Origin: Gammaproteobacteria bacterium
Lineage (GTDB): Bacteria > Pseudomonadota > Gammaproteobacteria > Enterobacterales > Alteromonadaceae
Direction of reading: 5' to 3'
Length of the DNA: 32,215 nucleotides
Assembly: GCA_018820995.1 (NCBI GenBank)
Contig: JAHJNE010000659.1
Location: 1-32,215, forward strand
The notes beneath the pieces are model-generated. The model did no database searches. It was not told the DNA's origin and saw nothing but the letters and a program-made list of their open reading frames with translations. Made by a program: the position numbers and the translations under genes. Of this stretch, positions 104 to 20,497 are shown one piece after another (the stretch's first letter is position 1; every line of letters begins with the position of its first letter).

Positions 104-1276
104 ATGGTCAGGAACATTGTCTTGTCATACCAACATATTTTTAAAAAGTCTGTCAATTTATACCTCACTCCATGTTTGTTCGTGTTGGCTTGCACCTTAA
201 ATCAGGTCAAGGCTGCGGCGGTCGATCCACAAGCCGCAAAACCATCACACGACGCTACGCCTGCCACGAGCACTCTTTTGCCACGCTATTCCGAGTTGGT
301 AAACGTCGGTACCCAAAAGTTTCATATCCGGCGGATGGGACCCGTTGCAGCACAAGTAAAGGCGCCAGTCGTGGTGTTATTATCCGGTCCGAATAAAAAT
401 TTCCATGCCGACAGCGCCTGGTTTGCATTATTGCAGCCGTTATTGGCGCAAAGCTATAACGTCATCGCCATTGACCGGCTTGGCAATGGTTTTAGCGATG
501 ATGCAGACAATCTGTCTTATCAGCGTTTTAGTCAGGATTTAGTCAGTTTGCTGCCCGCCATCACAGATCAGAATGTGATACTGGTGAGTTTTGCCAGCGC
601 CAATATTAGTGCGCAGTTGTTTTATCAACAGGCTCCCACAGGGCCGGCGGCCAGTCAGGTTAAAGCGATGATCTTGATTGATCCGGATATTCCAACACCA
701 GCAGCATTAGCGCTTTATCAGGGTTATCCGGTGGATTGGTATCAGCAGCACTTGCAACAATTACTACCGGAATTGGCCAAAGGTGTTTGGAATCAACGCA
801 CTTTAGATAAGCTAAAAGCCGAGCGGGCGGAAATTACTGCCCTGCTAAATCCAGAGCATCAGGCACAAATGGATTGGGACTATTTCGATCAGATCAGTCA
901 GCAACGAAAAACGCCCAAACGCCAACAGCAACGCGCTATAGAAATTGCGCACTATGCCAAAGATTTAGATTTATTCGCCGCCCTGCCTGCCATCAGCGAC
1001 ATCCCGGTTACCGTCATAGACAGCGATTTTGAAACGATGGATATCGCCGCAGATCCAAGCCAAGCCGGGCAGCTGCAGTTATGGCAACAACAAGGCAGTG
1101 CCTGGAGCAAACAGTTGGCAAACTCTTCAGGTGGTCAGTATCTGCCACTTGCGAACAGCCACCACCTGGTGATGTTTCAACATCCGGAAAAGATCCTGGC
1201 AGCAGTCGATTGGCTGCGGATCAAAATTTCACAGCCAGCTGCGGGCACCGCCGGCCTAAAAGGTTCACGGCCTTAA
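104..1276 (+). CDS. Secreted alpha/beta-hydrolase-fold protein, possibly with a degenerate active site
   Basis: 390 aa ORF with N-terminal hydrophobic signal-like segment. The fold pattern VVVLLSGP...YNVIAIDRLGNGFSD...IPVTVIDSD...NSHHLVMFQHPEKIL is typical of alpha/beta hydrolases. Confidence 0.75.
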   Translation: MVRNIVLSYQHIFKKSVNLYLTPCLFVLACTLNQVKAAAVDPQAAKPSHDATPATSTLLPRYSELVNVGTQKFHIRRMGPVAAQVKAPVVVLLSGPNKNFHADSAWFALLQPLLAQSYNVIAIDRLGNGFSDDADNLSYQRFSQDLVSLLPAITDQNVILVSFASANISAQLFYQQAPTGPAASQVKAMILIDPDIPTPAALALYQGYPVDWYQQHLQQLLPELAKGVWNQRTLDKLKAERAEITALLNPEHQAQMDWDYFDQISQQRKTPKRQQQRAIEIAHYAKDLDLFAALPAISDIPVTVIDSDFETMDIAADPSQAGQLQLWQQQGSAWSKQLANSSGGQYLPLANSHHLVMFQHPEKILAAVDWLRIKISQPAAGTAGLKGSRP

Positions 1277-2202
1277 ATCAGACTTTCACGCCTGCCATCC
1301 GCTGCACGCAAGCCAAGAATAGCCGCACCACGTTCACCGGATGCGGCGCCAAATTCTGCAGTTTTAAGCGGCGGCACCGAAGCGCCTGCAAACAGATGAC
1401 GCGCAATGGCCGCTGGCAGCGCCTGGTGAATTTCCTCCAGATCGGATAAACCGCCACCGATCACAATCACATCCGGATCATATGCCAATACCTGACTGGC
1501 AAGACATGCCCCTAAGGCGTCCATATAACATTCAAAGGTGTGCTTGGCCGTCATATCGCCGCCACGAAATGCGGTAATCCAATCGTAGGTGGTTAAGCTT
1601 TGTTGGCTAAAATGGCTGTATAGCCGTGCCAGGCCAGTGCCGGAAATATATGTTTCGGCACACCCTTTTAAACCACAACCGCAGTCATACAGTGGCAGCT
1701 GGTATTTTGCCAGCACGCGTCCCGCCACCGATTGATGCCCAAACTCACCCGCCAGCTGTTGCGGCCCCTGATACAACTCACCATCGACACAAAGACCGCC
1801 GCCGGCGCCAGTGCCTAAGATCACGCCAAACACTTTGTTGTAACCACGCCCGGCACCGAGCATCGCTTCTGATAACACAAACAAACGGCAGTCGTTCCCC
1901 AAAGCCACCGGTCGTTGCAGCCGCGCCACAAGATCGGCCGCCACGGTGCGTTGATTTAAACAAGCCACGTTGGAGGAAATAACCAAACCTTGCGGAGCCA
2001 CCACGCCTGGCAAGGCAATCCCGACCGGAGCCCGCTTACCTAGTAATTGATCGGCTTTGTCGATTTGCGCCGAAATTGTCTGCAAAAACTGCGGATAATC
2101 ATCGGTCGGCGTCGGTACCCGCCAGCGCTCAAGCAGCTGAAATTGCTCTGTAAATACAGCAATTTCTATTTTAGTCCCACCGATATCCAAACCGTACACC
2201 AT
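1273..2202 (-). CDS. agaK: ROK family sugar kinase, probably N-acetylgalactosamine kinase
   Basis: ROK motifs DIGGTKIEIAVF, GTGAGGG and CGCGLKGCAETYISG (zinc site). The start overlaps the agaS stop (TGATG). GalNAc specificity is inferred from context. Confidence 0.85.
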   Translation of the reverse strand: MVYGLDIGGTKIEIAVFTEQFQLLERWRVPTPTDDYPQFLQTISAQIDKADQLLGKRAPVGIALPGVVAPQGLVISSNVACLNQRTVAADLVARLQRPVALGNDCRLFVLSEAMLGAGRGYNKVFGVILGTGAGGGLCVDGELYQGPQQLAGEFGHQSVAGRVLAKYQLPLYDCGCGLKGCAETYISGTGLARLYSHFSQQSLTTYDWITAFRGGDMTAKHTFECYMDALGACLASQVLAYDPDVIVIGGGLSDLEEIHQALPAAIARHLFAGASVPPLKTAEFGAASGERGAAILGLRAADGRRESLI

Positions 2203-3428
2203 CAGCGGTTTCCTCTGGCTGCTGTCAAAACTACATCACGGGCAAAGGCTGCTGTTTCAGGCAGAGGATAAATGGTCACCCCTTGCACCACCCGGTTCAC
2301 TTCACCACCAGGGCAAGGGTTATCGGGCGTAACGCCAAGCTGCAATGCTTTGTAAAAAGCTAAAGTCTGGCAGTATACAATATAAGGAAAAGCCGACCAG
2401 ACATCTGTCATGGCAGAGTCGGGCAAAGTCGCCCAGTCAGCAATATCCAGCTCAGTAATGGCTTGCGCCCGACCATTCGCCTGCAATTCTTGTTGTAAAT
2501 CCTGATCATAAAGCCGGCTATAAGCGTCACAGGATTTCAGCAGTACAATGTGGGTTTGCCCATCCACCAGTGATTTAGGGCCGTGGCGAAATCCGAGCGG
2601 ACTTTCGTAATAACTACCGATTTGCCCTGATGTCAGTTCCAGATATTTCAGGGCTGCTTCCTGCGCAATGCCTTTTAAACAACCTGCGCCCAGAAACACG
2701 ATGCGCCGGCAAGGCGTTTGCGCTAACTGCCGAATGGACTGATGCTGTAACAACACTTGTTCGCTCAGCAGCGTGGCCTGCTGGAAAGCCTGCACATCGG
2801 GCGCAAATAATAATAAGGTTGCCAGTAACATCCCGGTGAAACTACTGGTCATTGCGAAGCTGCGATCGTGACAGGCATCCGGCAATAACCACAAGGCGCA
2901 ATTAGCTTTGTCTTTGGCAAACCGCGCCAGCTGGCCGTCGGCATTGCAACTAATCATTAAATGAAAGCTTTGCGCCACCAGCGCGTCGACCACAGCAAGC
3001 GCCGCAACACTTTCCGGGCTATTACCAGAGCGACCAAAACTAACCAATAAGGTTGGGATTTCAGCAGTTAAATATAACTGTGGGTGACTGACTAAATCGG
3101 TGGTACTGATGGCTTCGATCCGTTGTCCAGGCAGCGGTAACTTGTTGATTAAATGTGGTACCACGGTCTGACCGATATAAGCAGATGTCCCAGCGCCGGT
3201 GAAAATAATCCGCAAATTCGGTAAGGCTAGTAGCGGCTGCAGCCAACTGCGCAAGCTCGCTTCAATGGCGGTAAATTCAGTTGCCAATTGTTGCCAGATC
3301 GCTGGCTGTTGCGAAATTTCCTGCGCTGTCCAAGACGCGCCTGCCTGCTGCAATTGTGCTGTGCTAAGACCCAGCATGGTTGAATTTTTATCTGCACACA
3401 CGACCACCGAACCACCTCTTTTTTCCAA
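2202..3428 (-). CDS. agaS: AgaS-type SIS-domain aminosugar-phosphate deaminase/isomerase
   Basis: SIS motifs IIFTGAGTSAYIG, LLVSFGRSGNSPESVAA and GFRHGPKSLVDG, plus the C-terminal NRVVQGVTIYPL, recall E. coli AgaS. The tracked start is TTG; the ATG at 3377 (MLGLSTAQ...) is an alternative. Confidence 0.88.
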   Translation of the reverse strand: MEKRGGSVVVCADKNSTMLGLSTAQLQQAGASWTAQEISQQPAIWQQLATEFTAIEASLRSWLQPLLALPNLRIIFTGAGTSAYIGQTVVPHLINKLPLPGQRIEAISTTDLVSHPQLYLTAEIPTLLVSFGRSGNSPESVAALAVVDALVAQSFHLMISCNADGQLARFAKDKANCALWLLPDACHDRSFAMTSSFTGMLLATLLLFAPDVQAFQQATLLSEQVLLQHQSIRQLAQTPCRRIVFLGAGCLKGIAQEAALKYLELTSGQIGSYYESPLGFRHGPKSLVDGQTHIVLLKSCDAYSRLYDQDLQQELQANGRAQAITELDIADWATLPDSAMTDVWSAFPYIVYCQTLAFYKALQLGVTPDNPCPGGEVNRVVQGVTIYPLPETAAFARDVVLTAARGNR

Positions 3429-3577: not shown

Positions 3578-4870
3578 TTAGGCAGCGACGGATAACCCAC
3601 AGGCTGTCGCATAACGAGCGGTCACCTGCCTGATTTTGTGTTGAATCAGCGCTTGTGGCGTTGCCGCCAGATCGCCGTTGAGCACGGCCTCATATTGCAC
3701 CGGCAAAAACTGACTGAGCAGTGGCAATGGGATGGCTTGCGTCGCAAGGTTCTGACAAAGTTTTTCAACTGCAGCGCGGATCAACGGCAGGTTCCAGTAA
3801 TAACGGATGCGATCGCTGTAACTGAATTGGCGCAGCAACGATTGTTGCTCGGCGCTCACTTGATAAAATGCCTGCCAATAATCAGGCTGGCGCTGCATTT
3901 CACGCTCACAAATGGCAATCAGGCAAGATTGTTGTTCAATCGGCAGCAACTGCTCTTCAATTAAACAAAGCGCAAACAGTGCTTCGCGCAAGGCAAAAGT
4001 CAGTTGTGGCCCGACTTTTAAAATCGCAAAATGCTGACGCACCAGTTGCTGATAGGCCTGTGCTGGCTGGTAATCGGTGGAATGGGCTTCATACACCACA
4101 TGTGGCACATCCCGGATAAAACTGGCCAAAGCAGCGGTTTTATCCGCCTGAAAGCGATGCACACTGGTATTGTCAAATTCGACGCCCGGCTGTACCACAA
4201 CCGCAATCACTCGTTGCCATACGGCTTCGGTCAATCCTGCCTCTGCAAAAGCCTGCTGATGGTCAAGCAGCGTTTGTGCGACATGGCCAACCGGCGTCAC
4301 TGCCAGGCTTGCCTCTAAACTTGCCACGCCACCCGGCGCCGGTACTTCCGTGCCAATGACATAACAAAGTTCACTGTGGCCAAACTGTTGCATCGACGTT
4401 TGTTCAGCAACCTGACACAACCGTGCTGCACGTTGTGCGATCAACGTATCGGCTAAAGGCAGCACATCATCGGCACAGGCCATACTGGTATCTAAATGAA
4501 TTTTTTGAAAACCTGCTGCGACATACACTTCGATCAGCTTCTCGGCTTGTGCCATCGCTTGCGCGGCGGGTTGATGTTTCCAGCACACCGGGCCTAAATG
4601 ATCACCACCAAACAGGATCTGCTGTCGACTCAGGCTAATTTCATCAGCTAACTTAAATACAAAATCTATAAAATCAGAAGGTTGCATGCCGGTATAACCG
4701 CCATACTGATTGACCTGATTGGCAGTCGCTTCTATCAGCAGTTTGCTGCCATCTTGCTTTGCCTGCGCCAGCGCTGCCATCAGCACCTGCGGGTGCGCTG
4801 AACAAACCGAATAGATCCCCAAGGGCTGACCCGCTTTGTTCGCGCGGATCAATTCAAGCAAAGCTTTCAT
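3578..4870 (-). CDS. GatZ/KbaZ/AgaZ-like protein (class II tagatose-1,6-bisphosphate aldolase non-catalytic subunit family, or putative tagatose-6-phosphate kinase)
   Basis: 430 aa. Motifs GIYSVCSAHPQVL, LLIEATANQVNQYGGYTGMQPSDF, FGGDHLGPVCW and YVIGTEVPAPGG are characteristic of the family. Shine-Dalgarno AGGAG upstream of the ATG. Confidence 0.88.
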   Translation of the reverse strand: MKALLELIRANKAGQPLGIYSVCSAHPQVLMAALAQAKQDGSKLLIEATANQVNQYGGYTGMQPSDFIDFVFKLADEISLSRQQILFGGDHLGPVCWKHQPAAQAMAQAEKLIEVYVAAGFQKIHLDTSMACADDVLPLADTLIAQRAARLCQVAEQTSMQQFGHSELCYVIGTEVPAPGGVASLEASLAVTPVGHVAQTLLDHQQAFAEAGLTEAVWQRVIAVVVQPGVEFDNTSVHRFQADKTAALASFIRDVPHVVYEAHSTDYQPAQAYQQLVRQHFAILKVGPQLTFALREALFALCLIEEQLLPIEQQSCLIAICEREMQRQPDYWQAFYQVSAEQQSLLRQFSYSDRIRYYWNLPLIRAAVEKLCQNLATQAIPLPLLSQFLPVQYEAVLNGDLAATPQALIQHKIRQVTARYATACGLSVAA

Positions 4871-4880
4871 AACACTCCTG

Positions 4881-5654
4881 TTAACTGATGATTTGCACGT
4901 GCACCCCCATCCGGGTCAATTCTTCGACATACCCGGCCGGGATACCGGCATCTGTCACTAATGTATGGACCTGATTTGCCGCGCAAATCAGATGAAACCC
5001 ACGACGTTCAAACTTCGATGAATCGGTGACCACGATAATTTCCCGTGCCACCTCACACATCAGCCGGTTGAGCGTCGCTTCAGCTTCAAAATGGGTTGAT
5101 AGCCCGGTTTTTAAATCAAAACCGTCCACCCCCAGCACCACTTTGTCGAACTGAAAATGACGCAGTGCCTGTTCGGCCTGAGCACCGTAAAAAGACATTG
5201 ATTTCTTGCGTAACAAACCGCCGGTCAACATCACTTCAACTTTGTCGAAAGTTGCCAATTCAGTGGCGATATTCAGCCCATTGGTCATCACAATCAGATT
5301 TTTGTGCTCTGACAAACAAGCCGCTACTTCTTCCGTCGTCGTACCGGAATCAAGAATAATTCGCTCGTCATCGGCAATCAGCGCCGCCACAGCCCGGCCC
5401 AGTTTTTGTTTTAAATCTGAATGTTTCTGCCGCTTCTCTTTGAGCGACAATTCACGACTTAAATCATCATTCACCATGGCACCGCCGCGTGAACGAACCA
5501 CCAGCCGCTTACTATCGAGCGTCGCGAGATCGCTACGAATAGTCACTTCCGACACGCCAAAACGCTGCGATAAATCGGCCACCGATACTTTGCCCTGCAC
5601 TTGCGTCAACCGGACAATCTCTTGCTGCCGCTCAATCGTATTTAAACTTTCCAC
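4881..5654 (-). CDS. agaR: DeoR-family transcriptional regulator, AgaR-like; proposed GTG start
   Basis: HTH TIERQQEIVRLTQVQGKVSVADLSQRFGVSEVTIRSDLATLDSKRLVVRSRGGA and DeoRC sensor domain (LDSGTTTEEVAACL). The track ORF starts at 5747, but GTG at 5654 has the upstream sequence AGGGAGCAAGG and gives 257 aa, a typical DeoR size. Confidence 0.82.
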   Translation of the reverse strand: MESLNTIERQQEIVRLTQVQGKVSVADLSQRFGVSEVTIRSDLATLDSKRLVVRSRGGAMVNDDLSRELSLKEKRQKHSDLKQKLGRAVAALIADDERIILDSGTTTEEVAACLSEHKNLIVMTNGLNIATELATFDKVEVMLTGGLLRKKSMSFYGAQAEQALRHFQFDKVVLGVDGFDLKTGLSTHFEAEATLNRLMCEVAREIIVVTDSSKFERRGFHLICAANQVHTLVTDAGIPAGYVEELTRMGVHVQIIS

Positions 5655-5710
5655 CCTTGCTCCCTGCCCGCCTGGGGCCAGTTGGTTGTACCTTACCATC
5701 AAAAAATAAA

Positions 5711-5740
5711 CTTTCAATAGCTTTCGTTTTCGATATTTCA
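5711..5740. promoter_or_regulatory. Candidate AgaR/DeoR-type operator with tandem CTTTC elements
   Basis: CTTTCAATAGCTTTCGTTTTCGATATTTCA lies upstream of the proposed agaR start. CTTTC-rich operators are known for AgaR. A second CTTTCAATAG copy is at 5849-5858. Confidence 0.4.
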
Positions 5741-6095
5741 AAAGCATTTCTGCTTAAAAATGTTATGCCATGCAACTTAAAAATCACAAACAAACAGCAA
5801 CTGTATGTTTTTTATGAGATTAAAATTTAAATATGGCAATACTCAAACCTTTCAATAGAAGTTTCAGATCTATTCGATTTAACAAATAGACTAAAAACAT
5901 ATAAACGAAAGGCATAAATAACTTGCGATCATTTTCGAATTAACGATATAACAGTATATCGAAGGTTTTGATTGCTGTAGTTATCGTCAATATGTCATTC
6001 ATTTGCTGTTGTGACTGAGTTTACGCCAACCAAGCGTAACTGCGATATGTGCATTCGGGAATTTCATAACAAAAAATAACAAACCGGAGGGGAGT

Positions 6096-8972
6096 ATGTC
6101 AGTTCGCAATGTTTCGCAGGATCAATCGTCATCACATTCACGCAAACCGCACTATTTTTTACAGCCTGGGTTTTCAAAGAGCAAGCTCGCAACCTTAGTG
6201 CTGCTTGCCTTGGCAGGATTGCCCGCAGGCCAGGCGCTGGCTGAAGAGAGCGCCGCCAGCAAAGAAAAATCCGCCAAGGAAGAAAAAGTCGAAAAAATTG
6301 AAGTCACCGGCATTCGCAGCAGTATTAAAGAATCGTTGTTTATGAAACAAAACGCCACCAGTGTAGTCGATGTGGTGGTCGCCGAAGATATTGGCAAATT
6401 CCCGGATGAAAACCTGGCAGAAGCACTGCAACGGATCGCTGGCGTCACTATTACTCGGAACGGTGGCGAAGGACAGAACGTATTAATCCGCGGTTTGGGG
6501 GATGGTTACAACATCACCACCCTTAATGGACGCAAACTAGCCTCAGAAAACAGTGGCCGAGATTTTAACTATGACACTATCGCTTCGGAGCTGGTGAGCT
6601 CTATCGCAGTCTATAAATCACCCGAAGCACGCTTGCAAGAAGGTGGCATTGGCGCCGTTGTCGATATTCAAACCAGAAAGCCTCTTGATTTAAAAGGCTT
6701 GACGATGGCCGCTTCGGCAAAAGGCGTCTATGAAAATCGAACCGGCGAAACCCAGCCCCACCTGTCATTTCTGGTTGGTGACCTGTTTGACGATGGAAAG
6801 TTGGGGGTATTGCTAACAGGCGCTTATTCCGAGCGGACCTTACGCAATGACACCTATTCTGCCGCTGGTTTTTATGATGAAGCTGAAGGCGTGACCGAAG
6901 CGACAATCCCCGTAGATATGAATAAGGATGGGATCATTGATCAAGCCAATGAACTGTTTCCGTCAAAAGTACCGGCTTACATGTATTACGCCAATGCCCA
7001 GGATGTACGAGAGCGACTGGGCGGCACGCTAAATGTGCAATATCAGCCAAACGACTGGATTGATCTCAGTGCCGATGTTTTGTACTCGCGCTACAACACC
7101 AACGGCAATAGATATCAGATCGGCTTCGTCAACTACGATGAAAGCTGGACACCAGGTACGCCAATATTTGGCGATGCTAAATTTGGGGACGATGGCCGGG
7201 TCATTGCCGTCACCCAAACGGCCAACCCGATGGTGGAATTACTGAACCTGACATCCCCACGGAAAACGGATACCTGGCAATTTGGCACGAATGGTAAATT
7301 TCAATTAACTGATCAGCTGACGTTGGTTGCTGACTATTCACACTCAGAAGCCAAAGATCAAAATGCCGGCGACAATCGTTTTATCGTCGCGCGCGGGTTT
7401 GTCGACTCCATTAGCATCGACTACAGCAAAGATAACAAACTGCCGGATGTGACCATTGCTCCGGGGTTAAATGCTGAGCAAAAGTACGGTGCGCATTATA
7501 GCTATAACAGTGGAACCGGCGTCACAGACAAAGTAGATGACCTCAAACTACTGGCCTCTTACACAGTCGATGATTCCATTATCACCAAAATTGATGCCGG
7601 CATTACCTATGTGCAACAAACCAAATCGCGCAGCGAATTCTCTTCAAAAAACCCAAGTCAGTTTAGCAATGGCGGTTTTTATCTGACGCGGGACAAATAC
7701 GCTTTTGACAATAGCACCGTATTCTCACAGGGCGATTTTTCACTCTTCCGGATCCCGACAGATGTCTTTGTACCCGCAAATTTCGACAATTTCCTCGATG
7801 GTGAAGCTGGCGTGCATCCGAGCCCGTGGCCAAGCTTCGATTACGACAAATTACTGTCTTACTACCGCAGTATCAATGCCGAAGCCGCCGACAAAAGCAT
7901 CGTGCCGCAGCTCAATCAAGCCGGTGCTTTTAATGTGAAAGAAGCAATCAGCACCGCCTTTATCCAAATGAACATAGAAGACACCGTCTTTGAGCTACCA
8001 TACTTTTTAAATATTGGCGTGCGCGCCAGTAAAACCGAAGTCACCAGCAGTGGTTTTTCCTATGATTTAGCCAAAGTGGTGCTGGATGGCAATGGCAAAC
8101 CGACTAACAATGACTGGCGCACAGTGCAACAAATTAGTCATGACGGTTCGTACAGCGAGTTACTGCCAAGCCTTAACTTCAAGCTGACGCTACAGGACGA
8201 TCTATTCTTCCGCTTTTCGGCGGCTGAAGTGATGAGTCGTCCAAGCCTTGATCAGTTAAAACCTTGGGCTGCCCCAAACTTCACCACGTTCAAAGAAGGT
8301 TTGCCACAACTCAGTATTAACTTTCCTGATTTACCGCCAGAAATGGCCAAACAGTATGACGCTACACTGGAATGGTATTTTGCCGACAGCAGTCAGCTGG
8401 CAGCTGGGGTGTTTATCAAAGATATTGAGTCTTTTATCAGCACAGAACGCGGCCCGATAGATCTACATGGAGTGAAATATTATGCCGAATATCCGATCAG
8501 CGGCGAATATGGCGCCAGTATCAAAGGTGTCGAGTTATCCTGGCAACAATCGATGGAAAATTGGTTACCAACGCCGTTTGATGGCATGGGTATCCAATTG
8601 AACTATACCTATGTTGACAGCCAGTTTGACGACCCGGAACTGAAGGATATTTCTTATACTGGGATGTCTAAAAATTCCTATAATGCAGTGGTTTATTATG
8701 AAAAAGATGGCATTCAGGCGCGCCTGGCCTACAACTGGCGCAGCAAGTTTCTGTTGTACCCGGGGGATTGGGGCGGCGATAGCTGGATAGCCGATTATGG
8801 TCAGTTAGACGCCAGTGCCAGCTACGACATTAACGAGCAATTGTCGGTGTATACCGAAGTATCAAATCTCACCAACCAGCGCTATTGGGGTTATGTCAAA
8901 CAGGAAGATCAGGTGAACTTTTTGGAACGCTTTGGCACCCAGTTTGCTGTTGGGATCCGCGGTAATTTCTAA
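6096..8972 (+). CDS. TonB-dependent outer-membrane receptor (TonB_Xanth_Caul-like)
   Basis: Signal peptide, then KIEVTGIRSSIKESLFMKQNATSVVDVVVAEDIGKFPDENLAEALQRIAGVTITRNGGEGQNVLIRGLG (plug) and a C-terminal beta-barrel ending FAVGIRGNF. SD GGAGGGG upstream. Confidence 0.95.
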   Translation: MSVRNVSQDQSSSHSRKPHYFLQPGFSKSKLATLVLLALAGLPAGQALAEESAASKEKSAKEEKVEKIEVTGIRSSIKESLFMKQNATSVVDVVVAEDIGKFPDENLAEALQRIAGVTITRNGGEGQNVLIRGLGDGYNITTLNGRKLASENSGRDFNYDTIASELVSSIAVYKSPEARLQEGGIGAVVDIQTRKPLDLKGLTMAASAKGVYENRTGETQPHLSFLVGDLFDDGKLGVLLTGAYSERTLRNDTYSAAGFYDEAEGVTEATIPVDMNKDGIIDQANELFPSKVPAYMYYANAQDVRERLGGTLNVQYQPNDWIDLSADVLYSRYNTNGNRYQIGFVNYDESWTPGTPIFGDAKFGDDGRVIAVTQTANPMVELLNLTSPRKTDTWQFGTNGKFQLTDQLTLVADYSHSEAKDQNAGDNRFIVARGFVDSISIDYSKDNKLPDVTIAPGLNAEQKYGAHYSYNSGTGVTDKVDDLKLLASYTVDDSIITKIDAGITYVQQTKSRSEFSSKNPSQFSNGGFYLTRDKYAFDNSTVFSQGDFSLFRIPTDVFVPANFDNFLDGEAGVHPSPWPSFDYDKLLSYYRSINAEAADKSIVPQLNQAGAFNVKEAISTAFIQMNIEDTVFELPYFLNIGVRASKTEVTSSGFSYDLAKVVLDGNGKPTNNDWRTVQQISHDGSYSELLPSLNFKLTLQDDLFFRFSAAEVMSRPSLDQLKPWAAPNFTTFKEGLPQLSINFPDLPPEMAKQYDATLEWYFADSSQLAAGVFIKDIESFISTERGPIDLHGVKYYAEYPISGEYGASIKGVELSWQQSMENWLPTPFDGMGIQLNYTYVDSQFDDPELKDISYTGMSKNSYNAVVYYEKDGIQARLAYNWRSKFLLYPGDWGGDSWIADYGQLDASASYDINEQLSVYTEVSNLTNQRYWGYVKQEDQVNFLERFGTQFAVGIRGNF

Positions 8973-9037
8973 TGTTCAGTGCTCATGCCGTTGAGAAGCA
9001 ATAAACGCTTGGTCAACGGTATGCCACCCACTGCATC

Positions 9038-9092: not shown

Positions 9093-12000
9093 ATGGGTAT
9101 TCGTTGTGGTCAGACTTTATTCGCGCTGGCTGTCAGCCAAACACTGGCGATGGCTACCGTCGCTGCGCCAATCGGCAATTTACAGCAGATCAGGGCTGAA
9201 ACCAGTCAGGTAGAGATCCAAACAGACCAGCAAGTGCAGCTGCAAATTCAATTATTAAAACCCGATGTTTTCCGACTACAAGCGAGCAACGACGGCAAAT
9301 TTACTGGTCCAGGCAACAAAGCGGCAGCAATTGTCATCAAGCAGGATTATGCCCGCGTTGAGTTCAACCTGAGCGACCAGGGCGACTATCAGTTACTAAA
9401 AACCAGTGCCATGGCGCTGCGTATTTACAAACAACCGCTGAAGTTCGCTTTATATAAAGCTGACAATCAAACGCTAATATTTGAAGAGTTACAACCGCTG
9501 GAACTGGCCAAAGACCTAAGTTTCCAAACCCTCAGCAGTTCTACCGACGAGCGTTTTTTTGGTGGTGGCCAGCAAAACGGTGCCTTTGAATTTAAAGGCA
9601 AAACCATGGATATTTCTTATTCTGGCGGCTGGGAAGAAGGTGACCGGCCAAGTCCGGCACCATTTTTTATGTCGAATAAAGGGTACGGTGTCCTTCGCAA
9701 TACCTGGGCCAATGGCAGCTACGATTTTCGCTCCAATGAATACATCAATGTAAGCCACCAGGAACAACGCTTTGATAGTTACTATTTTGTCGGTGATTCA
9801 TTAAATGACGTACTGGCCGACTATACCGAACTGACGGGTCGCGCCCGCCTGATCCCACGTTGGGCTTTTGAATATGGCGATGCCGACTGCTACAACGATG
9901 GCGACAATATTAAAAAACCGGGCACAGTGCCGGATGGCTGGAGCGACGGCCCAACCGGCACGACACCAGATGTGATTGATAGTGTTGCCAAAAAATATCG
10001 TGAACACGACATGCCTGGCGGCTGGATTTTACCGAATGATGGATATGGTTGTGGTTACACCAATCTGCCGGAAGTGGTGAAAGGGTTAGCAAAATACGGT
10101 TTTCGCACCGGTCTTTGGACCGAAAACGGCGTGGATAAAATTGCCTGGGAAGTTGGCACCGCCGGCACCCGCGCCCAAAAACTCGACGTTGCCTGGACCG
10201 GTCAGGGCTATCAATTCGCGCTCGACGCCAATAAAGCCGCTGCTGATGGCATTTTGAATAACTCCGACTCACGGCCATTTTTATGGACAGTCATGGGCTG
10301 GGCTGGCATTCAGCGCTATGCCGTCACCTGGACCGGCGACCAGTCTTCCAGTTGGGATTATATCCGCTGGCATATCCCAACCCTGATTGGCTCGGGTTTA
10401 TCCGGTCAGACTTATGCCACTGGTGATGTTGACGCCATTTTTGGCGGCAGCCCGGAAACCTTTACCCGCGATTTGCAATGGAAAGCCTTCACCCCAGTAC
10501 TGATGGGGATGTCCGGTTGGGCCAAAGCGGCGCGTAAACATCCGTGGTGGTATGACGAACCTTATCGCAGCATCAACCGTGATTATCTGAAGTTAAAAAT
10601 GCGCTTGATGCCGTACATGTACACCACGGCTTATGAAGCAGAAATAACCGGCGCACCGATTATCCGTGGCTTGATGTGGGACTATCCGCAAGATCCATCC
10701 GCATTCACCGAAGCGCATAAATATCAGTTTTTAGTTGGCAAAGATCTGCTGGTAGCGCCGGTTTACCGCTCGATGGCGGCGACTAAAGGCTGGCGTAAAG
10801 ATGTGTATTTACCACAAGGCCAATGGATTGATTACTGGGATGGGCGGGTCGTGACGGCACCGACAACCGGCGCCAAACTGGATTACAAAACCGATCTGAA
10901 AACGATCCCGGTGTTTGTGCGGGCCGGTGCCATTTTACCGATGTATCCTGAATCATTGTATGACGGCGAAAAACCCAAAGATGTGCTGACACTCGACATT
11001 TATCCTTATGGTCAAAGCAATTACCAAATGTACGAAGATGATGGTAATAGCCGCCAATATCAGCAGGGCAAATTCAGTCAGCAACAATTTCGGGTTACTG
11101 CACCTGAAGGTATAGCCGGCGATATTCAAATCAATATCGATGCGGTCAGTGGCGAATACGCAGGTCAGGAACAACAACGGGTTTACCAGCTACAGGTTCA
11201 CAGCCGCATTCAACCTGACCAGGTCACGGTTGCAGGGAAAGTGCTGAAACAACTCAAAGATGCTAATGCTTTTTCCAAAGCCGAAAGCGGCTGGTATTTT
11301 AGCGCGCAGCAATACGGCGTGGTACAGGTAAAAACGGCCAAGACCTCGATTCGTCAGGCGTTGCAATTTGAACTTGCCATCAACCCGGCATTGCCGTTAA
11401 CCCCCACTGCCGGCTATGAACAGGCGCCGGAGCTTGGCAACGCCATTGCCGCGGATAGCTTGCTGGTCTTAAATCGTCCGGCCGAAGAGTCTGGTCATGT
11501 GCTGGAAAACGCTTTTGACGACAATCCAACCACCTGGTTTCGCACCAAACGTGACCAGGCACAAAAAACCGGGGCCCATGAATTTACATTGGCCTTGGGT
11601 GAACGGCGGATGGTCAACGGTTTTGAAATTGCACCACGCAACGATCAGCACTGGAAATATGGTCAGGTGCGCGATTATGAAGTCTATATCGCCGATAACA
11701 ATGGCGAATGGGGCGAGCCCGCGTATCGCGGCACCTTAAAACTGCTGCAAACGATACAAAAAGTTGAGTTTCCAGCCAAAGCCGGCACCCTATTCCGCTT
11801 TCGGGTGTTAAGCACTCAGGATCAGGCCGATGATGGTACAGCGATCGATTCGATGGTGACAGCGGCAGGTGATGATGCTGCGGGCAAGCAAACGGACGAG
11901 CAAAAAAGTAATTCAGATGCAGCGGCTGAGAAACCAGTTGTCGCCAAAGCCTTTAATGCCCTAATCCCAAAACAAGTAACGCCAATCACCATTTCCGAGT

Positions 12001-12485
12001 TTAAAGTGCTGGAACAGCCGCTGCCAAACCAGCCGCAGTTACAACAACCGCTGTCGGAAGTGGTCGCCAGTGTCAGCGAAAATAGCCGTGGTCCGGTTGA
12101 ACTGGATAGTAGCAACGGCGGCAAAAAAGCCAAAGATGGCGCGCAAATGCAAATGAACGGCCTGAAGTTTCGTAAAGGCCTCGGCGTCGCCGGCCACAGC
12201 AGGATTGATTACCCACTGCAAGGCCACTGGCAGTTGTTCCGCGCCGATGTCGGCATCGACGATAGTTGTCGCCAGCATGGCAGTGTGCAGTTCCAAATCT
12301 ATGGTGACGACCAGCTACTCTACGATTCAGGCACTTTACAGGCGCCAGCCGTGGTGAAACCACAACTGGATATTCGCGGCATCAAATTATTGAGCCTGCG
12401 TACCACAGCCGGTCACAGCAAAGTTTGTGCGAATTGGGCCAATGCGATGGTGATTGGTTTTGCCGGGGATAAAGCTGGCAAGTAA
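9093..12485 (+). CDS. Secreted GH31 family glycoside hydrolase with F5/8 type C (CBM32-like) and NPCBM-like modules; probable alpha-N-acetylgalactosaminidase
   Basis: GH31 core (ERFFGGGQQNG, RARLIPRWAFEYGDAD, KLDVAWTG, WTGDQSSSWDYIRWHIPTLIGSGLSG, RLMPYMYT) plus C-terminal discoidin-like and NPCBM-like regions. The track start is GTG 8979; ATG 9093 follows an AGAGG SD and begins a signal peptide. Substrate inferred from motif and context. Confidence 0.85.
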   Translation: MGIRCGQTLFALAVSQTLAMATVAAPIGNLQQIRAETSQVEIQTDQQVQLQIQLLKPDVFRLQASNDGKFTGPGNKAAAIVIKQDYARVEFNLSDQGDYQLLKTSAMALRIYKQPLKFALYKADNQTLIFEELQPLELAKDLSFQTLSSSTDERFFGGGQQNGAFEFKGKTMDISYSGGWEEGDRPSPAPFFMSNKGYGVLRNTWANGSYDFRSNEYINVSHQEQRFDSYYFVGDSLNDVLADYTELTGRARLIPRWAFEYGDADCYNDGDNIKKPGTVPDGWSDGPTGTTPDVIDSVAKKYREHDMPGGWILPNDGYGCGYTNLPEVVKGLAKYGFRTGLWTENGVDKIAWEVGTAGTRAQKLDVAWTGQGYQFALDANKAAADGILNNSDSRPFLWTVMGWAGIQRYAVTWTGDQSSSWDYIRWHIPTLIGSGLSGQTYATGDVDAIFGGSPETFTRDLQWKAFTPVLMGMSGWAKAARKHPWWYDEPYRSINRDYLKLKMRLMPYMYTTAYEAEITGAPIIRGLMWDYPQDPSAFTEAHKYQFLVGKDLLVAPVYRSMAATKGWRKDVYLPQGQWIDYWDGRVVTAPTTGAKLDYKTDLKTIPVFVRAGAILPMYPESLYDGEKPKDVLTLDIYPYGQSNYQMYEDDGNSRQYQQGKFSQQQFRVTAPEGIAGDIQINIDAVSGEYAGQEQQRVYQLQVHSRIQPDQVTVAGKVLKQLKDANAFSKAESGWYFSAQQYGVVQVKTAKTSIRQALQFELAINPALPLTPTAGYEQAPELGNAIAADSLLVLNRPAEESGHVLENAFDDNPTTWFRTKRDQAQKTGAHEFTLALGERRMVNGFEIAPRNDQHWKYGQVRDYEVYIADNNGEWGEPAYRGTLKLLQTIQKVEFPAKAGTLFRFRVLSTQDQADDGTAIDSMVTAAGDDAAGKQTDEQKSNSDAAAEKPVVAKAFNALIPKQVTPITISEFKVLEQPLPNQPQLQQPLSEVVASVSENSRGPVELDSSNGGKKAKDGAQMQMNGLKFRKGLGVAGHSRIDYPLQGHWQLFRADVGIDDSCRQHGSVQFQIYGDDQLLYDSGTLQAPAVVKPQLDIRGIKLLSLRTTAGHSKVCANWANAMVIGFAGDKAGK

Positions 12486-12506
12486 CTTCAGATTGTGACC
12501 TGTGCA

Positions 12507-12560
12507 GCAGATATCATAACTAACATCCGAATGATGGCAGTTTTGGTATCTGCTTTTTGT
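12507..12560 (+). terminator. Candidate intrinsic terminator after the GH31 gene
   Basis: GCAGATATC (12507-12515) pairs with GGTATCTGC (12545-12553), one G-T wobble, followed by TTTTTGT. The loop is long (29 nt). Confidence 0.4.
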
Positions 12561-12593
12561 TTGGTTGGCGCGGTCATTATTTAGCGGGGCGTC

Positions 12594-12830
12594 TTACACC
12601 CCCTCTTTTGCCCTTGCGATTGCCAACTGAATGGCGGCTTTAGCTTGCGGACTATTTTTCCAACAGCTGGTACGCAACATCAAAGCAACTCGCTCGGCAA
12701 TCTCAGTCGCCTGATAATTTGCCAAGTCAGCAAATGAGTGGATGCCAATTTCCTCAAATCGCTGTAAAACTTTAGGGCCAACGCCCTTTACCGCCAACAA
12801 TGCTTCCCGCTCTGGCGCTGAAAATGCCAT
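12594..12830 (-). CDS. Helix-hairpin-helix domain protein (Cdd1/'pathogenicity locus'-like)
   Basis: LLAVKGVGPKVLQRFEEIGIHSFADLANY is an HhH motif. ATG at 12830 is preceded by SD GGAGAT; the track start at 12860 is GTG. Confidence 0.7.
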   Translation of the reverse strand: MAFSAPEREALLAVKGVGPKVLQRFEEIGIHSFADLANYQATEIAERVALMLRTSCWKNSPQAKAAIQLAIARAKEGV

Positions 12831-12859
12831 CACTATCTCCGTTAGATTGATCAAGTCCA

Positions 12860-13630
12860 CTACAAAGGTAACTGCCAGGTTTTGATGGCTATCGTATTTT
12901 CAAAGGCATCGGGGCATTCGAGTTTTTCCAGTATCTCAGGCCCGGGTAAGCAGTCATTATCCACAAATTTAACCAGTTCAGGAACAGAGTCGCAGAACAA
13001 AATGTCGAGTGACAGGCGATCCATCCCATAAATTCCCCGATGAATCATATTGGCACTAAATACCAATAAATCACCGGTAGCTAACGTCACTCTGAAACCC
13101 GAAGCAAGATCTTCATAGTTTTTGTGACCATTTAGCTCCATCCGAACATCAAACTCTTCGCTGTTATCCCAACGCTGATGGGTTCCTGGCACGAGTTCGA
13201 CTCCGGGTTCATCCACTAAAGCAATCCGACAATGCACAACATGAAGACTGTGCAGCGCTTTTTTCTGCTCATCGACGGACAGATGGTACTGTGGATCCCG
13301 ATGCCAGTAATTTTTCTGGTTGATATTCACCGGATCAAAAAACAATTGAGTATTCATAAATGCAGGTTGTTCGCCAATGATTGAAGTCACGACGTTCATC
13401 AACTTCGCCGAACCGATAAACTTAAATAATGTTTCCCGCTCTGCATCCCGCAAGTGCTTTTTGGCGGTTAGATAAGCAGAGTTTATTGCTTTTGTGGCGT
13501 AAAAAGTGGCGTTTTCTTGTCTCCACGATTGGTGAAACTGCGTGACCACTTCGCGTAGATTTTGCAGCTCATTTGGACTTAAAAAATCTTTAACAATGAA
13601 AAAGCCATCATCCTGGTAGTTTTGATGCAT
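12860..13630 (-). CDS. Phytanoyl-CoA dioxygenase (PhyH) family protein
   Basis: DDGFFIVKDFLSPNELQNLREVV N-terminus, HRDPQYH (metal-binding HxD), VPGTHQRWDNSE and LVFSANMIHRG (distal His). Confidence 0.82.
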   Translation of the reverse strand: MHQNYQDDGFFIVKDFLSPNELQNLREVVTQFHQSWRQENATFYATKAINSAYLTAKKHLRDAERETLFKFIGSAKLMNVVTSIIGEQPAFMNTQLFFDPVNINQKNYWHRDPQYHLSVDEQKKALHSLHVVHCRIALVDEPGVELVPGTHQRWDNSEEFDVRMELNGHKNYEDLASGFRVTLATGDLLVFSANMIHRGIYGMDRLSLDILFCDSVPELVKFVDNDCLPGPEILEKLECPDAFENTIAIKTWQLPL

Positions 13631-13754
13631 AGAGATACCAATAATTTTTGGTTATTGGGAAAATACTGCGTATTGACCGAAACGACCAGCAGTCTTTTTC
13701 CTCGTGAGTTCACCAACAGCATTGAACAATGTGTTCGGCAATTAAACGCAGCTG

Positions 13755-14534
13755 TCAGCGGTTGCCCTCGCATGCTAACTCCACCAAAGATTGGGCATTA
13801 ATACGGTAACGCTCTTGCAGCAATAAGTACTTTTCATCTTGAAACAACGACTTCAGCGCTTGATCAAAAGCTTTTGCATCTTCGACTTTGCGAAAAGCGG
13901 CACGGTAATAACTGGCTGGGAATAAAGGATGAATAGTGACCTGTTGCAGGGGGACGATTTTATCATTGTGATAATTAAATATATTTACATCCATCACCAA
14001 CGCCTGCACTCTTTTGCGCAGTAACGATTCCACCTGACTACTTTGCTCAACGGTTTCCCGGTATTTGTAGGAGTTTTCGACCGCGCTCCGATATTCATCA
14101 CCCAGCAGCTGCGATGCATTTTGAAACGCTAATACCGATAAATCCTTCAAATCACTCAACTGCACGATCGACAATGCATCGGCTTCCAAAGTAATCACCA
14201 CATTCTGATAACGAATATAGGGACAGCTATAAAACAGTTCAGGCTCGTTAGCGGACATCGGCTGTAAAGTCGCAATATCGCCAATCCCTTGCTGTAACAA
14301 CGTTTGGATTCGCTTATTCGGAACGTGGGTAAATTCTGCGCGGTAGCCCATCCGTTGCACAACTTCGCGTAATAACTCAAGCTCAAAACCGTCCGAGGTT
14401 TCAATCTGAATATAGGGCGGCTTGCTCATCCCAACCAACACTTGCAGCGGCTGTTTATCTCGAGCCTCAACCTGAAATCCAAGCTGTACCGCCAAAATTA
14501 CCAGCCACACCCATACCCGACCAATGTTTGTCAT
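13755..14534 (-). CDS. Periplasmic solute-binding (SBP_bac_3-like) protein
   Basis: Signal-like N-terminus at Met 14534 (MTNIGRVWVWLVILAVQLGFQVEA), then SKPPYIQIETSDGFELELLREVVQRMGYRAEFTHVPNKRIQTLLQQGIGDIA. The track ORF extends to 14615. No transporter genes adjacent. Confidence 0.72.
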   Translation of the reverse strand: MTNIGRVWVWLVILAVQLGFQVEARDKQPLQVLVGMSKPPYIQIETSDGFELELLREVVQRMGYRAEFTHVPNKRIQTLLQQGIGDIATLQPMSANEPELFYSCPYIRYQNVVITLEADALSIVQLSDLKDLSVLAFQNASQLLGDEYRSAVENSYKYRETVEQSSQVESLLRKRVQALVMDVNIFNYHNDKIVPLQQVTIHPLFPASYYRAAFRKVEDAKAFDQALKSLFQDEKYLLLQERYRINAQSLVELACEGNR

Positions 14535-14715
14535 AAGAGCATCCGGCGAAGTCATACCTGTTGCAAGCATAGTTGGCACAACTGTGATTAATCCAGCAAG
14601 TACAATAACTATCATCGCGAAGGGTGCGACCTATTGTCGCAACATCTGGAATTGTTGAATTTTAGTCGATAGTATAAATCCAGATATTTTTGATATTCAG
14701 TGAGTTACTCAATCT

Positions 14716-15456
14716 ATGCGATATCTCCGCACAATCCGGTTCTGGCGAACCTTTCATCTTTGGTTGAGTTTATTGCTGTCATTGCAGTTGCTGGCTTGGT
14801 TTGGTGGCGGGTTGATCATGTCGGTGTTGCCAATTAACGAAGTGCGCGGCGACCATTTAAGAGCCCCCACACCAAGTATTCAATGGTCACAGGCGAATGT
14901 CAGCCCAGCGCAATTAAAGCACCTCGTGCACATGCAATTACCCAATGCGGGCTTATTGACGGGTGTATTAAGTCTGAAACAACGTGGTGAGCTACCGGTA
15001 TATCAGCTGCAGAATGGTCCAAAATCGCAGTATTTCAGTGCTATCGACGGTAGCAAACTGCAGCCACTGAATGAAAAAGAAGTACATCAATTAGCGCAGC
15101 AGTTGTATCGGGGCGGCGGCAAATTACAGCAGGCTAGGTTGATCAGCGAGTTGCCGATTGAAGCTCGGGGTTTGCGTGCGCCGGTCTGGCAGGTCACCTT
15201 TCAAGATGCGGATAATAGCGTATTTTATCTGGATCCCATCCTTGGACAACTACTGCGGGTTCGCACCGACAACTGGCGGTTATACGATTTTGTCTGGATG
15301 TTGCACATCATGGACTATAAGGAGCGGGATAATTTTAATCACGGCTTATTGATTGCAAGTTCTGCATTGGCTTTGTTATTTACGATCAGTGGCTTGGTAT
15401 TGCTGGTCATGACATTGCGCCGAAAAACCAGTCGCTCTTCATTAGCGGGGCAATGA
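14716..15456 (+). CDS. PepSY-domain membrane protein
   Basis: N-terminal TM (RTFHLWLSLLLSLQLLAWFGGGLIMSV), C-terminal TM (LLIASSALALLFTISGLVLLVMTLRRK) and PepSY-like VYQLQNG...FYLDPILGQLLRV. Confidence 0.7.
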   Translation: MRYLRTIRFWRTFHLWLSLLLSLQLLAWFGGGLIMSVLPINEVRGDHLRAPTPSIQWSQANVSPAQLKHLVHMQLPNAGLLTGVLSLKQRGELPVYQLQNGPKSQYFSAIDGSKLQPLNEKEVHQLAQQLYRGGGKLQQARLISELPIEARGLRAPVWQVTFQDADNSVFYLDPILGQLLRVRTDNWRLYDFVWMLHIMDYKERDNFNHGLLIASSALALLFTISGLVLLVMTLRRKTSRSSLAGQ

Positions 15457-15558
15457 ACCTGGTCAGCGTGTCGACTGACGCTTGTCGCCCCACTTTACTG
15501 GTAAAAGACCGCTGCTGACGTATACTGAAAAGTACCATGTACTAAACGGAGACGCATT

Positions 15559-15786
15559 ATGGACAACAGTCATCATTCTTTACGTGAGTTGTTTGACCAA
15601 CTTGGGCTCGACAGTGATTACAATAGTATTGAGCAATTTATCGGCAAACATCGGTTAAATGAAGATTTACCATTATCCAAAGCCAGCTTCTGGACGACAG
15701 CTCAAGCTTCTTTCTTACGCGAATCTTATCATCAGGACGCGGATTGGGTTGCAGTGATCGATGAACTGAATCAACGCCTACGCTAA
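15559..15786 (+). CDS. DUF2789 family small protein
   Basis: 75 aa, SLRELFDQLGLDSDYNSIEQFIGKH...FWTTAQASFLRESYHQDADWVAVIDELN. Clear SD GGAG upstream of the ATG. Confidence 0.75.
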   Translation: MDNSHHSLRELFDQLGLDSDYNSIEQFIGKHRLNEDLPLSKASFWTTAQASFLRESYHQDADWVAVIDELNQRLR

Positions 15787-15814
15787 CTTTTGTGAGGTCA
15801 ATTCCGCCTTGGTA

Positions 15815-17137
15815 TCATTCAACAATACGGATTTGATACAACGGCAATGCATCAAGTCGTTGATCAATATCCTGCAGTATTTTCTGGTAATTAACTGAGT
15901 CAACCGACTGATATTCCTGCTCAAAGGTTTGCTGCGACAGACCTTCCGGCAACCGGGATTTGCTTGGGAATAAATCTGCTTCAGTCAACTCCTGACTAAA
16001 AAACTGCTGCAGCGCAGCGGCTGAGCTGGCAGAACCAATCGCAATTTGTGCAAAACGAACTCCGGCACGATCTGCCAGCAAATCCACAAAACTAAAACCA
16101 CTGCCACCTTTGATTGAATCTAGCAGTTCTTTGGCCTCACCGACCGTGTCGCTGACGTTTTTATTCGTCAGCACTTGGATGGTCGCTGAATAAATAAAAT
16201 GTTGTTGTAAATCCGGACGTCTGGCTAAAGTCACCCGAGGTGCTTTCCCGCCAGGCGCTTTTTTCACTTCATTCACCAACAATTGTAAGTTCTGCCCACC
16301 CAGCAATTGCGCCATCGCGAGCAACACAGCTTGATTCTCTAGTTGTGCCCGGCCTGGTTCATCCTGATAGACCGCTGTGCGCAGCTGCGCCTGACGAAAC
16401 AGCAGCTGCAAATAGCCATGCAGACTGCTATTCGGATTTGCGACAGCATACTCGGCGGCGATTTTGTAATAAAACTCGAGATTGGCGGTTTGTGCTGGCG
16501 AACTGAATAACTCACGATAGACCGACAGGCCGGATTGCTTCAGGCGCTGAAAATCCCAGCCACCTGGTCTTGTCACTTCAACCTTGACTTCGTCCTGCTG
16601 AAATTGCACCGAACGCACCATCGCTAACAAACTGGCACCTTTACCTGGTCCCCACAAACGATCGGCAAACCAACCAAGTAGACTCAAAGCCGTGTCACCT
16701 GGCAGAGTCAGCATGCCCAGCGTCACCTGCTGAATATCCAATGGACCTGTTGAAGGATGAACCTGCACGCTGGCGTTCAAATAATAAGATTTCCCCAGCA
16801 AGGTCACCGGCAAGGTCATATAGCTGGTTAAGCCTTCAGGGGTCACTTGTGCCTGGCCCCGAAAACCCGGCAAGGTACGGCTGGCGAGCGCAAACGCAGA
16901 GTTTAACTCATCCGTATTCGCTGAAAAAACCCATTGTTGCTCGGTCGGATTTTGCATTGCGGAATTGAGGTTGCTCAACAATTGTTTACTGTGCCGCACC
17001 GCTTCAGCGTTCATTCGCCCTTGCGGTGTAACCAGTGGCTGCGCATCAAATAACAACCAGAAGCAAATAACGCCTAAGGTGATAATCACCAAAAGCAACG
17101 TCAGCACTTGCCGGAATAAATGATGTACCGCCTGCAT
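15815..17137 (-). CDS. Conserved-type membrane-anchored protein of unknown function
   Basis: Long ORF with N-terminal TM (LTLLLVIITLGVICFWLLF) and a large presumably periplasmic domain. ATG at 17137 (MQAVHHLFRQ) fits better than the GTG track start at 17212. Confidence 0.65.
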   Translation of the reverse strand: MQAVHHLFRQVLTLLLVIITLGVICFWLLFDAQPLVTPQGRMNAEAVRHSKQLLSNLNSAMQNPTEQQWVFSANTDELNSAFALASRTLPGFRGQAQVTPEGLTSYMTLPVTLLGKSYYLNASVQVHPSTGPLDIQQVTLGMLTLPGDTALSLLGWFADRLWGPGKGASLLAMVRSVQFQQDEVKVEVTRPGGWDFQRLKQSGLSVYRELFSSPAQTANLEFYYKIAAEYAVANPNSSLHGYLQLLFRQAQLRTAVYQDEPGRAQLENQAVLLAMAQLLGGQNLQLLVNEVKKAPGGKAPRVTLARRPDLQQHFIYSATIQVLTNKNVSDTVGEAKELLDSIKGGSGFSFVDLLADRAGVRFAQIAIGSASSAAALQQFFSQELTEADLFPSKSRLPEGLSQQTFEQEYQSVDSVNYQKILQDIDQRLDALPLYQIRIVE

Positions 17138-17441
17138 CGCCACTCGATGGACCTTCTGCACCAAAAAACAGTATCTTACCAGAAGGATTGTCATCCACGG
17201 CAAGCTTTTCACGGCGAATAGACGGCAAAGACAGCTCGACGTTGATCCAGTCTATTTACGCTCAGCAGCAAGCAAATAATTTTCAACATGCGGCCGCCTG
17301 ACAAGTGAAGGAGTAGACCCATCAATCAACGCCGACGGATCTGGCGTTTATCATTTCAATGACGAAAGTGACATTGTCGCTGCCGCACTATATATTCTTG
17401 TTAACTAATTCAACCCAACCCTGCAATAGCCGACTAAGCTG

Positions 17442-19565: not shown

Positions 19566-19647
19566 CATATTTGCTGACATTCAATCACTGGCAATTGGCG
19601 GGTTCGCCGATTTACACTGAAATAAACAGCTTTTAAAGGACACGCCC

Positions 19648-19968
19648 ATGCTTAGTAGCCTATCTGACAGTCACATTCAAAAAAAAGTGCTGGCGACGGC
19701 ACAATTAGGTGCAGGCCACAGCGATGGTTATTTGAGTGTCAGTTCGACAACGCTGCGCTTTGAACCATTTAATCAGACGTATGGCTTAGGCCCTTATCTT
19801 ATTCACCGGGATGAAATCAGCAAGGTTGAACCCACTTATGGCAAAGGTGGTGGTTTTATACCGGTAGTAGCAGAAGCCATTACCATTACCATGGCTGATA
19901 GCCGGCAATATCAGTTTGTGCTGGCTGACGCCGCTGGCTGGATCGCATTGTTGCAACCAGCGCAGTGA
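19648..19968 (+). CDS. Small hypothetical protein, PH-like/GRAM-like by pattern only
   Basis: 106 aa ORF with SD AAAGGA. Pattern GYLSVSSTTLRFEPFNQ...IHRDEISKVEP...ITITMADSRQYQFVL. Confidence 0.6.
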   Translation: MLSSLSDSHIQKKVLATAQLGAGHSDGYLSVSSTTLRFEPFNQTYGLGPYLIHRDEISKVEPTYGKGGGFIPVVAEAITITMADSRQYQFVLADAAGWIALLQPAQ

Positions 19969-20071
19969 CAACTTCCGGTTTGCTTCGTTTTCCTAAAACT
20001 GTGATCTGATGTTCACCATAAGGGTGTTTCTGCACTATGGTTAGCTCATACTCGGGAGGAAAAGACGACCG

Positions 20072-20497
20072 ATGACCTTTCAAATATTACAGCTCGACCA
20101 TATCGTGCTGCGCTGCCAGCACTTACCAGAAATGTTGGAGTTTTATCAACAGCGACTTGGCTGTACGCTGGAACGTAGCGTCCCGGAACTGGGTCTGTAC
20201 CAATTGCGTGCAGGGCAGCACCTGATTGACTTAATTAGTGTTGAAGGGGAACTGGGACAACAAGGTGGCGCCGCACCTCGGGCTGAAGGCCACAATATGG
20301 ACCATTTTTGTCTGCGGATAGACCCTTTTGACAGCCTATCTTTAACCGCATTTTTTAGTCACTACGGTATTGAAGTATCCACCAGCGCAGAGAGATATGG
20401 CGCTGATGGTTTTGGGCCTTCGTTGTACATCAAAGATCCAATGGGGAATACCATTGAACTCAAAGGCCCACCCGTCAAAACTGTAACCAGCGACTAG
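20072..20497 (+). CDS. VOC family (glyoxalase/bleomycin resistance-like) protein
   Basis: [28 protein letters not shown]...[16 protein letters not shown]...HFCLRI...[17 protein letters not shown]. Confidence 0.88.

Follow-up and report, generated by a model that had tools for sequence, protein, structure and literature searches.

A predicted GH31 alpha-N-acetylgalactosaminidase in a proteobacterial aga locus, and a second gene context among its relatives

Described GalNAc-releasing enzymes and amino sugar pathways

EfNag31A of Enterococcus faecalis (structures 6m76, 6m77, 7f7q and 7f7r) belongs to subfamily 18 of glycoside hydrolase family 31 (GH31_18) and is an LPXTG-anchored enzyme of a Gram-positive bacterium. 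To date, alpha-GalNAc activity is the only one reported for GH31_18 (PMC13096917, PMC11790493, PMC11992087). Characterised members remove core GalNAc linked to the mucin peptide but leave blood group A intact, some cleave mucin and neither small Tn nor blood group A substrates (PMC11992087, PMC11790493), and one is active on pNP-alpha-GalNAc alone (PMC13096917). The Bacteroides BT3169 / B. caccae enzymes and Akkermansia Amuc_1008, predicted to be periplasmic, strip core alpha-GalNAc from mucin (PMC11992087, PMC11790493).

According to PMC9537276, the breakdown of GalNAc and of the other sugars listed there starts with phosphorylation. The proteobacterial aga pathway for GalNAc, in E. coli and Shewanella, involves AgaR, AgaS, AgaZ and AgaA (Leyn 2012, as cited in PMC4694137). 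The role of agaA can be taken over by nagA in E. coli (PMC3668189). The Ong pathway of Pseudoalteromonas serves the oxidative catabolism of GlcNAc1A; its OngC is distantly related to the D-serine-deaminase-like PLP family (PMC9537276).

The window, that is the whole 32,215-nucleotide stretch of DNA analysed here, encodes a protein with the same catalytic architecture as EfNag31A, including both Asp motifs and the active-site blocks, at 38% identity to this characterised enzyme. Unlike EfNag31A, it lacks several barrel insertions, carries CBM32-like and NPCBM modules, and is encoded in a Gram-negative aga locus together with a TonB receptor. The Bacteroides and Akkermansia enzymes belong to the same subfamily by literature description, not by alignment, and their hosts are gut mucin degraders, in contrast to the host of the window, which is most likely a Rheinheimera, judging from its closest named relatives. 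As in the E. coli and Shewanella pathway, AgaR, AgaZ, AgaS and a kinase are clustered; however, the window has neither agaA nor a permease, but has the GH31 enzyme and the TonB receptor. We propose, with a probability of roughly 0.88, that this gene codes for a secreted, retaining alpha-N-acetylgalactosaminidase within the GH31_18 clade, and that the enzyme feeds the Aga route. Homology, catalytic alignment, clade, domains, predicted fold and gene context support this reading, and from them we infer activity, linkage, transport and regulation.

The GH31 protein, its catalytic residues and its placement

The coding sequence (9093..12485, + strand) yields 1130 aa from the ATG at 9093; the reading frame stays open upstream as far as a GTG at 8979, and the stop codon ends at 12485. 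A probable Sec signal peptide (...LAMATVA/AP; 9093..9161, +) was judged by eye from the translation. It is followed, all on the + strand, by the GH31 N-terminal galactose-mutarotase-like domain (residues 50-211, 9240..9725; PF13802, E=6e-17), the Pfam-matched part of the TIM-barrel (residues 375-511, 10215..10625; PF01055, E=6e-28), the GH31 C-terminal domain (residues 520-615, 10650..10937; PF21365, E=4e-22) and DUF5110 (residues 632-704, 10986..11204; PF17137, E=1e-17). The PF01055 model does not cover the N-terminal part of the barrel, which has diverged too far. PF13802, PF01055 and PF21365 all scored above cut-off, so that the protein is a GH31 member by curated HMM; a reading made earlier from the sequence only had called it a GH31 enzyme, and the Pfam domains together with both catalytic motifs bear this out. 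The accessory modules named in the same reading were also recovered, as an F5/8 type C module with a CBM32-type fold (residues 799-911, 11487..11825, +; PF00754, E=2e-9) and an NPCBM module (residues 986-1120, 12048..12452, +; PF08305, E=4e-30).

The sequence-only reading had placed the nucleophile in KLDVAWTG and a probable acid/base Asp in WTGDQSSSW. Both motifs were found at those positions of the 1130-aa product, the first Asp being residue 365 (GAC, 10185..10187, +) and the second residue 416 (GAC, 10338..10340, +). KLDVAWTG aligned with KTDVAWVG of 6m76, and Asp365 with Asp455 of the E. faecalis enzyme; because this aligned residue is Asn in 7f7r (D455N, with Tn antigen), Asp365 is the predicted nucleophile by homology. 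Asp416, the predicted acid/base, aligned with the Asp of WTGDQT in 6m76. Relatives were collected by scanning one genome per species, which gave at least 582 encoded relatives. The best 80 were kept, these being the top-scoring loci, with many close kin, and not an even sample. KxDVAWxG and WxGDQ, with both catalytic Asp, were invariant in all 80. The motif had been described as non-classical, which holds against alpha-glucosidases only; among the known GH31 alpha-GalNAcases it is the usual one.

By phmmer, the closest solved protein was 6m76, the E. faecalis GH31 alpha-GalNAcase (E=2e-119), followed by a Flavobacterium GH31 dextranase (2e-58). Comparison of predicted structures, which had been put forward as a check, agreed: in a Foldseek search with a model of the catalytic domain, 7f7q, 7f7r, 6m77 and 6m76 came out on top (E about 1e-51, TM 0.8), above the FjDex31A dextranase (1e-42). 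In both rankings, the four E. faecalis entries came before any structure of a dextranase, transglucosylase, xylosidase or glucosidase. The model (pLDDT 72, pTM 0.78), whose barrel was partly of low confidence, served for fold ranking only and not for active-site geometry. A full-length model (A3; 1107 aa, 36 sequences) was set aside, with pLDDT 69.5, pTM 0.56 and the barrel below 50.

In the tree, the window protein formed one clade with E. faecalis, Phocaeicola, Kitasatospora, Photobacterium and proteobacterial proteins, split 100/100 from other GH31. The five outgroups were YicI, YihQ, CjAgd31B, the Rheinheimera relative of CjAgd31B and a glucosidase-II-like GH31, and the E. faecalis enzyme was the single characterised GH31_18 reference. 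Grouping with alpha-glucosidases or xylosidases, chosen beforehand as the refuting outcome, did not appear. The clade with the GH31_18 reference was monophyletic to the exclusion of the other GH31 types, with a long internal branch that leaves the subfamily boundary loose; the E. faecalis/Phocaeicola pair sat on its own long branch, 1.3 changes per column from the window's group. The blocks LPNDGYG, KxDVAWxG, GWAGxQR and RDxQWKxFTP of the active site were common to the window and E. faecalis enzymes, and absent from the xylosidase- and glucosidase-type GH31 compared. Closest structures, tree, active-site blocks and gene context thus all favour the alpha-GalNAcase group over glucosidases, as had been suggested from the sequence.

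Gene context, proposed function and rival readings

Directly upstream of the GH31 gene, in the same direction, lies a gene for a TonB-dependent receptor (6096..8972, +; TIGR01782, 631 bits for a cut-off of 310), a probable glycan or glycopeptide importer. Divergent from these two genes, on the - strand, are those for the DeoR-family repressor AgaR (4881..5747; NF040755, 336 bits, cut-off 260), an AgaZ / GatZ-like protein of the tagatose-bisphosphate step (3578..4870; TIGR02810, 607 bits, cut-off 569), an AgaS-like galactosamine-6-P deaminase/isomerase with SIS domains (2202..3428; TIGR02815, 446 bits, the cut-off of 529 not being reached) and a ROK-family sugar kinase, probably an N-acetylhexosamine (GalNAc) kinase (1273..2202; Pfam ROK, E=4e-66). 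Homology to AgaR begins only at residue 36, so that the true start is probably near 5645. TIGR02815 is the best-matching family for the AgaS-like protein despite the score, and the best NCBIfam model for the kinase, N-acetylglucosamine kinase, was also below its cut-off. The neighbouring GalNAc genes of the sequence-only reading were found by NCBIfam, with AgaR and AgaZ passing equivalog cut-offs and the other two matching below theirs; with AgaS, AgaR and AgaZ clustered, the window holds an aga locus. No GalNAc-6-P deacetylase AgaA was found among the window ORFs scanned with Pfam and NCBIfam, nor an inner-membrane sugar transporter in the window. One NagA over cut-off is encoded elsewhere in the genome (contig C613), adjoining a SIS-domain gene.

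The divergent agaR/receptor interval contains a candidate AgaR operator region (5711..5911), with CTTTCAATAGCTTTCGTT at 5711-5728 (+) and CTTTCGTTT at 5903-5911 (-). Two copies of CTTTCGTTT, and no more, are present in the whole window, for 0.29 expected, and 4 of 100 shuffles reached two. The surroundings are partly conserved in two relatives, and a double-motif search for AgaR boxes performed no better than chance. The repeats are weak candidates for AgaR operators. On the other side of the GH31 gene, and facing it, is a PhyH-type dioxygenase gene (phytanoyl-CoA dioxygenase family; 12860-13630), absent from the 80 related loci.

These genes can be arranged into a route. The TonB receptor would import GalNAc-bearing oligosaccharides or glycopeptides to the periplasm, and hydrolysis would take place there or outside the cell, given the signal peptide seen by eye. 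With the enzyme probably anchored on glycan by its CBM32-like and NPCBM modules, Asp365 would attack the anomeric carbon of a terminal alpha-GalNAc, Asp416 would protonate the leaving group, and water would then free GalNAc with its alpha configuration retained. The ROK kinase would phosphorylate the freed sugar, the single NagA encoded elsewhere would probably deacetylate it, and AgaS and AgaZ would then convert it towards tagatose-1,6-bisphosphate, under the control of AgaR.

All of the best 80 of at least 582 relatives were proteobacterial (Rheinheimera, Shewanella, Undibacterium, Massilia, Duganella, Janthinobacterium, Stenotrophomonas, Lysobacter and others). AgaS was encoded within 10 kb of the GH31 gene in 60 of these loci; other neighbours were an AgaA/NagA-like deacetylase (49), a sugar MFS transporter (45) and a TonB receptor (51). 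AgaS, AgaZ, AgaR and the ROK kinase were seen in none of 13 control GH31 loci. The GH31 gene was present in 3 of 369 sampled genomes of the class, the window's own counted, and in 10 of 22 Rheinheimera genomes. In Rheinheimera, 6 genomes had both GH31 and AgaS where 5 were expected, so that co-occurrence did not exceed chance (Fisher p=0.67), and four genomes (G007, G012, G018, G020) have the GH31 enzyme and lack AgaS, which weakens the argument from GalNAc context within the genus.

Several individual loci differ from the window in their neighbours. One Rheinheimera locus (L054), from a genome without AgaS, has kept AgaR and the ROK kinase beside GH31, and two others (L030, L088) have a LysR regulator near GH31 and no aga genes. 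On plasmid pGJ3-1 of Photobacterium sp. GJ3, a 1.69-Mb replicon, a GH31 relative (L119) lies in a PTS-type aga cluster with AgaZ, a SIS-domain AgaS, an EII-Sor PTS, a NagA-like deacetylase and a class II aldolase.

The proteobacterial/actinobacterial branch might instead cleave another alpha-linked galacto-sugar, such as alpha-Gal, alpha-GalN or a modified GalNAc of bacterial surface glycans, and not peptide-linked GalNAc. Its distance from the E. faecalis/Phocaeicola pair in the tree would fit such a shift, as would the free-living, aquatic and soil hosts, the 20 of the 80 best loci without AgaS, and the variation in substrate already seen among characterised GH31_18 enzymes (PMC11992087, PMC11790493, PMC13096917). 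However, the active-site blocks are retained, and genes of N-acetyl-hexosamine deacetylase type and deaminase type occur in both kinds of neighbourhood, the Aga type and the one described below, so that we consider this alternative unlikely. An ordinary alpha-glucosidase or alpha-xylosidase whose motif has drifted is hardly conceivable: alpha-xylosidase and alpha-glucosidase models were indeed the best NCBIfam matches, but fell well short of cut-off (165 of 606 bits), while sequence, fold search and tree all point elsewhere, the protein does not cluster with YicI, CjAgd31B or the glucosidase-II-like GH31, and neither the WxDMNE-type motif nor the glucosidase active-site blocks are present. An inactive or lectin-like GH31 protein, as the two accessory sugar-binding modules might suggest, is next to incredible with both catalytic Asp invariant in 80 out of 80 relatives.

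A second gene context in Oxalobacteraceae

Besides the aga loci, 19 of the aga-less GH31 loci were examined. Eight of them (Massilia L034, Pseudoduganella L035, Undibacterium L036, L041, L045 and L046, Solimicrobium L043, Sapientia L044) share a LysR regulator, a DgoK-family kinase, an SDR and a protein of about 400 aa beside GH31. A RidA protein was present in six of the eight, a D-serine-deaminase-like PLP enzyme (OngC-like) in seven, and a D-aminoacylase matching PpOngB (E=1.7e-132) in four, two of which are cut by the locus end. In L034 the module spans 9905-20400. The full module takes in the DgoK-family kinase, RidA, SDR, OngC-like and OngB-like proteins, a NagP-like MFS or ABC transporter, LysR and the protein of about 400 aa, and was also seen at L174-L179.

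The protein of about 400 aa (YRSLYTYAWD...AYHAGKF; P0001, L041:4999-6204) was encoded next to the SDR in all loci read. Pfam and NCBIfam gave no match for it, and the PDB none of significance. In L034 and L035 its gene starts at the GH31 stop codon. Among 44 Undibacterium genomes, it was found in 17 and GH31 in 18, with both in 10 (p=0.07, suggestive only); physical linkage is the stronger argument for tying the two together. The module is not specific to the GH31 enzyme, because 7 of these 17 genomes have it without GH31.

Of the 80 loci, 60 had AgaS and 8 the module, and none had both (Fisher 4e-6). A whole-genome search of 17 bacteria with aga-less GH31 loci detected no AgaS, although it picked up two positive controls. 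The protein of about 400 aa was not found in 22 Rheinheimera genomes, in a search run without a positive control; the oxidative module is therefore no explanation for the Rheinheimera genomes that lack AgaS.

OngB-, OngC- and OngD-like genes of the Ong pathway recur at the Oxalobacteraceae GH31 loci and not in the window. Compared with that pathway, a kinase from the DgoK (galactonate) family replaces KdgK, the SDR and the protein of about 400 aa are added, and the GH31 enzyme takes the place of the chitin enzymes. This gene content suggests, as a coherent reading, an oxidative GalNAc route parallel to Ong. The SDR would oxidise GalNAc, the protein of about 400 aa would perhaps act on the lactone, which is a guess, the OngB-like enzyme would deacetylate, and the OngC-like enzyme with RidA would deaminate to 2-keto-3-deoxygalactonate, the DgoK-family kinase phosphorylating only after deamination. 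A narrow search of the literature found no description of an oxidative, phosphorylation-free GalNAc route. We tentatively suggest, leaning somewhat against rather than for it, that the GH31 alpha-GalNAcase family is tied to two mutually exclusive modules, the phosphorylating Aga route and a new oxidative GalNAc route in AgaS-less Oxalobacteraceae.

The window enzyme itself, as placed by alignment and tree, belongs to a known GH31 alpha-GalNAcase group, and its comparative context is the newer part. If correctly assigned, these proteins widen the range of GH31 alpha-GalNAcases beyond gut mucin degraders to a large group of free-living proteobacteria that includes Rheinheimera, Janthinobacterium, Massilia, Undibacterium, Stenotrophomonas and Lysobacter, for no member of which an assay was found in the literature. 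Enzymes that strip core GalNAc off proteins are useful for glycoprotein work. The comparison of neighbourhoods also yields a testable prediction, the oxidative pathway, which, if true, would break down GalNAc without phosphorylating it first.
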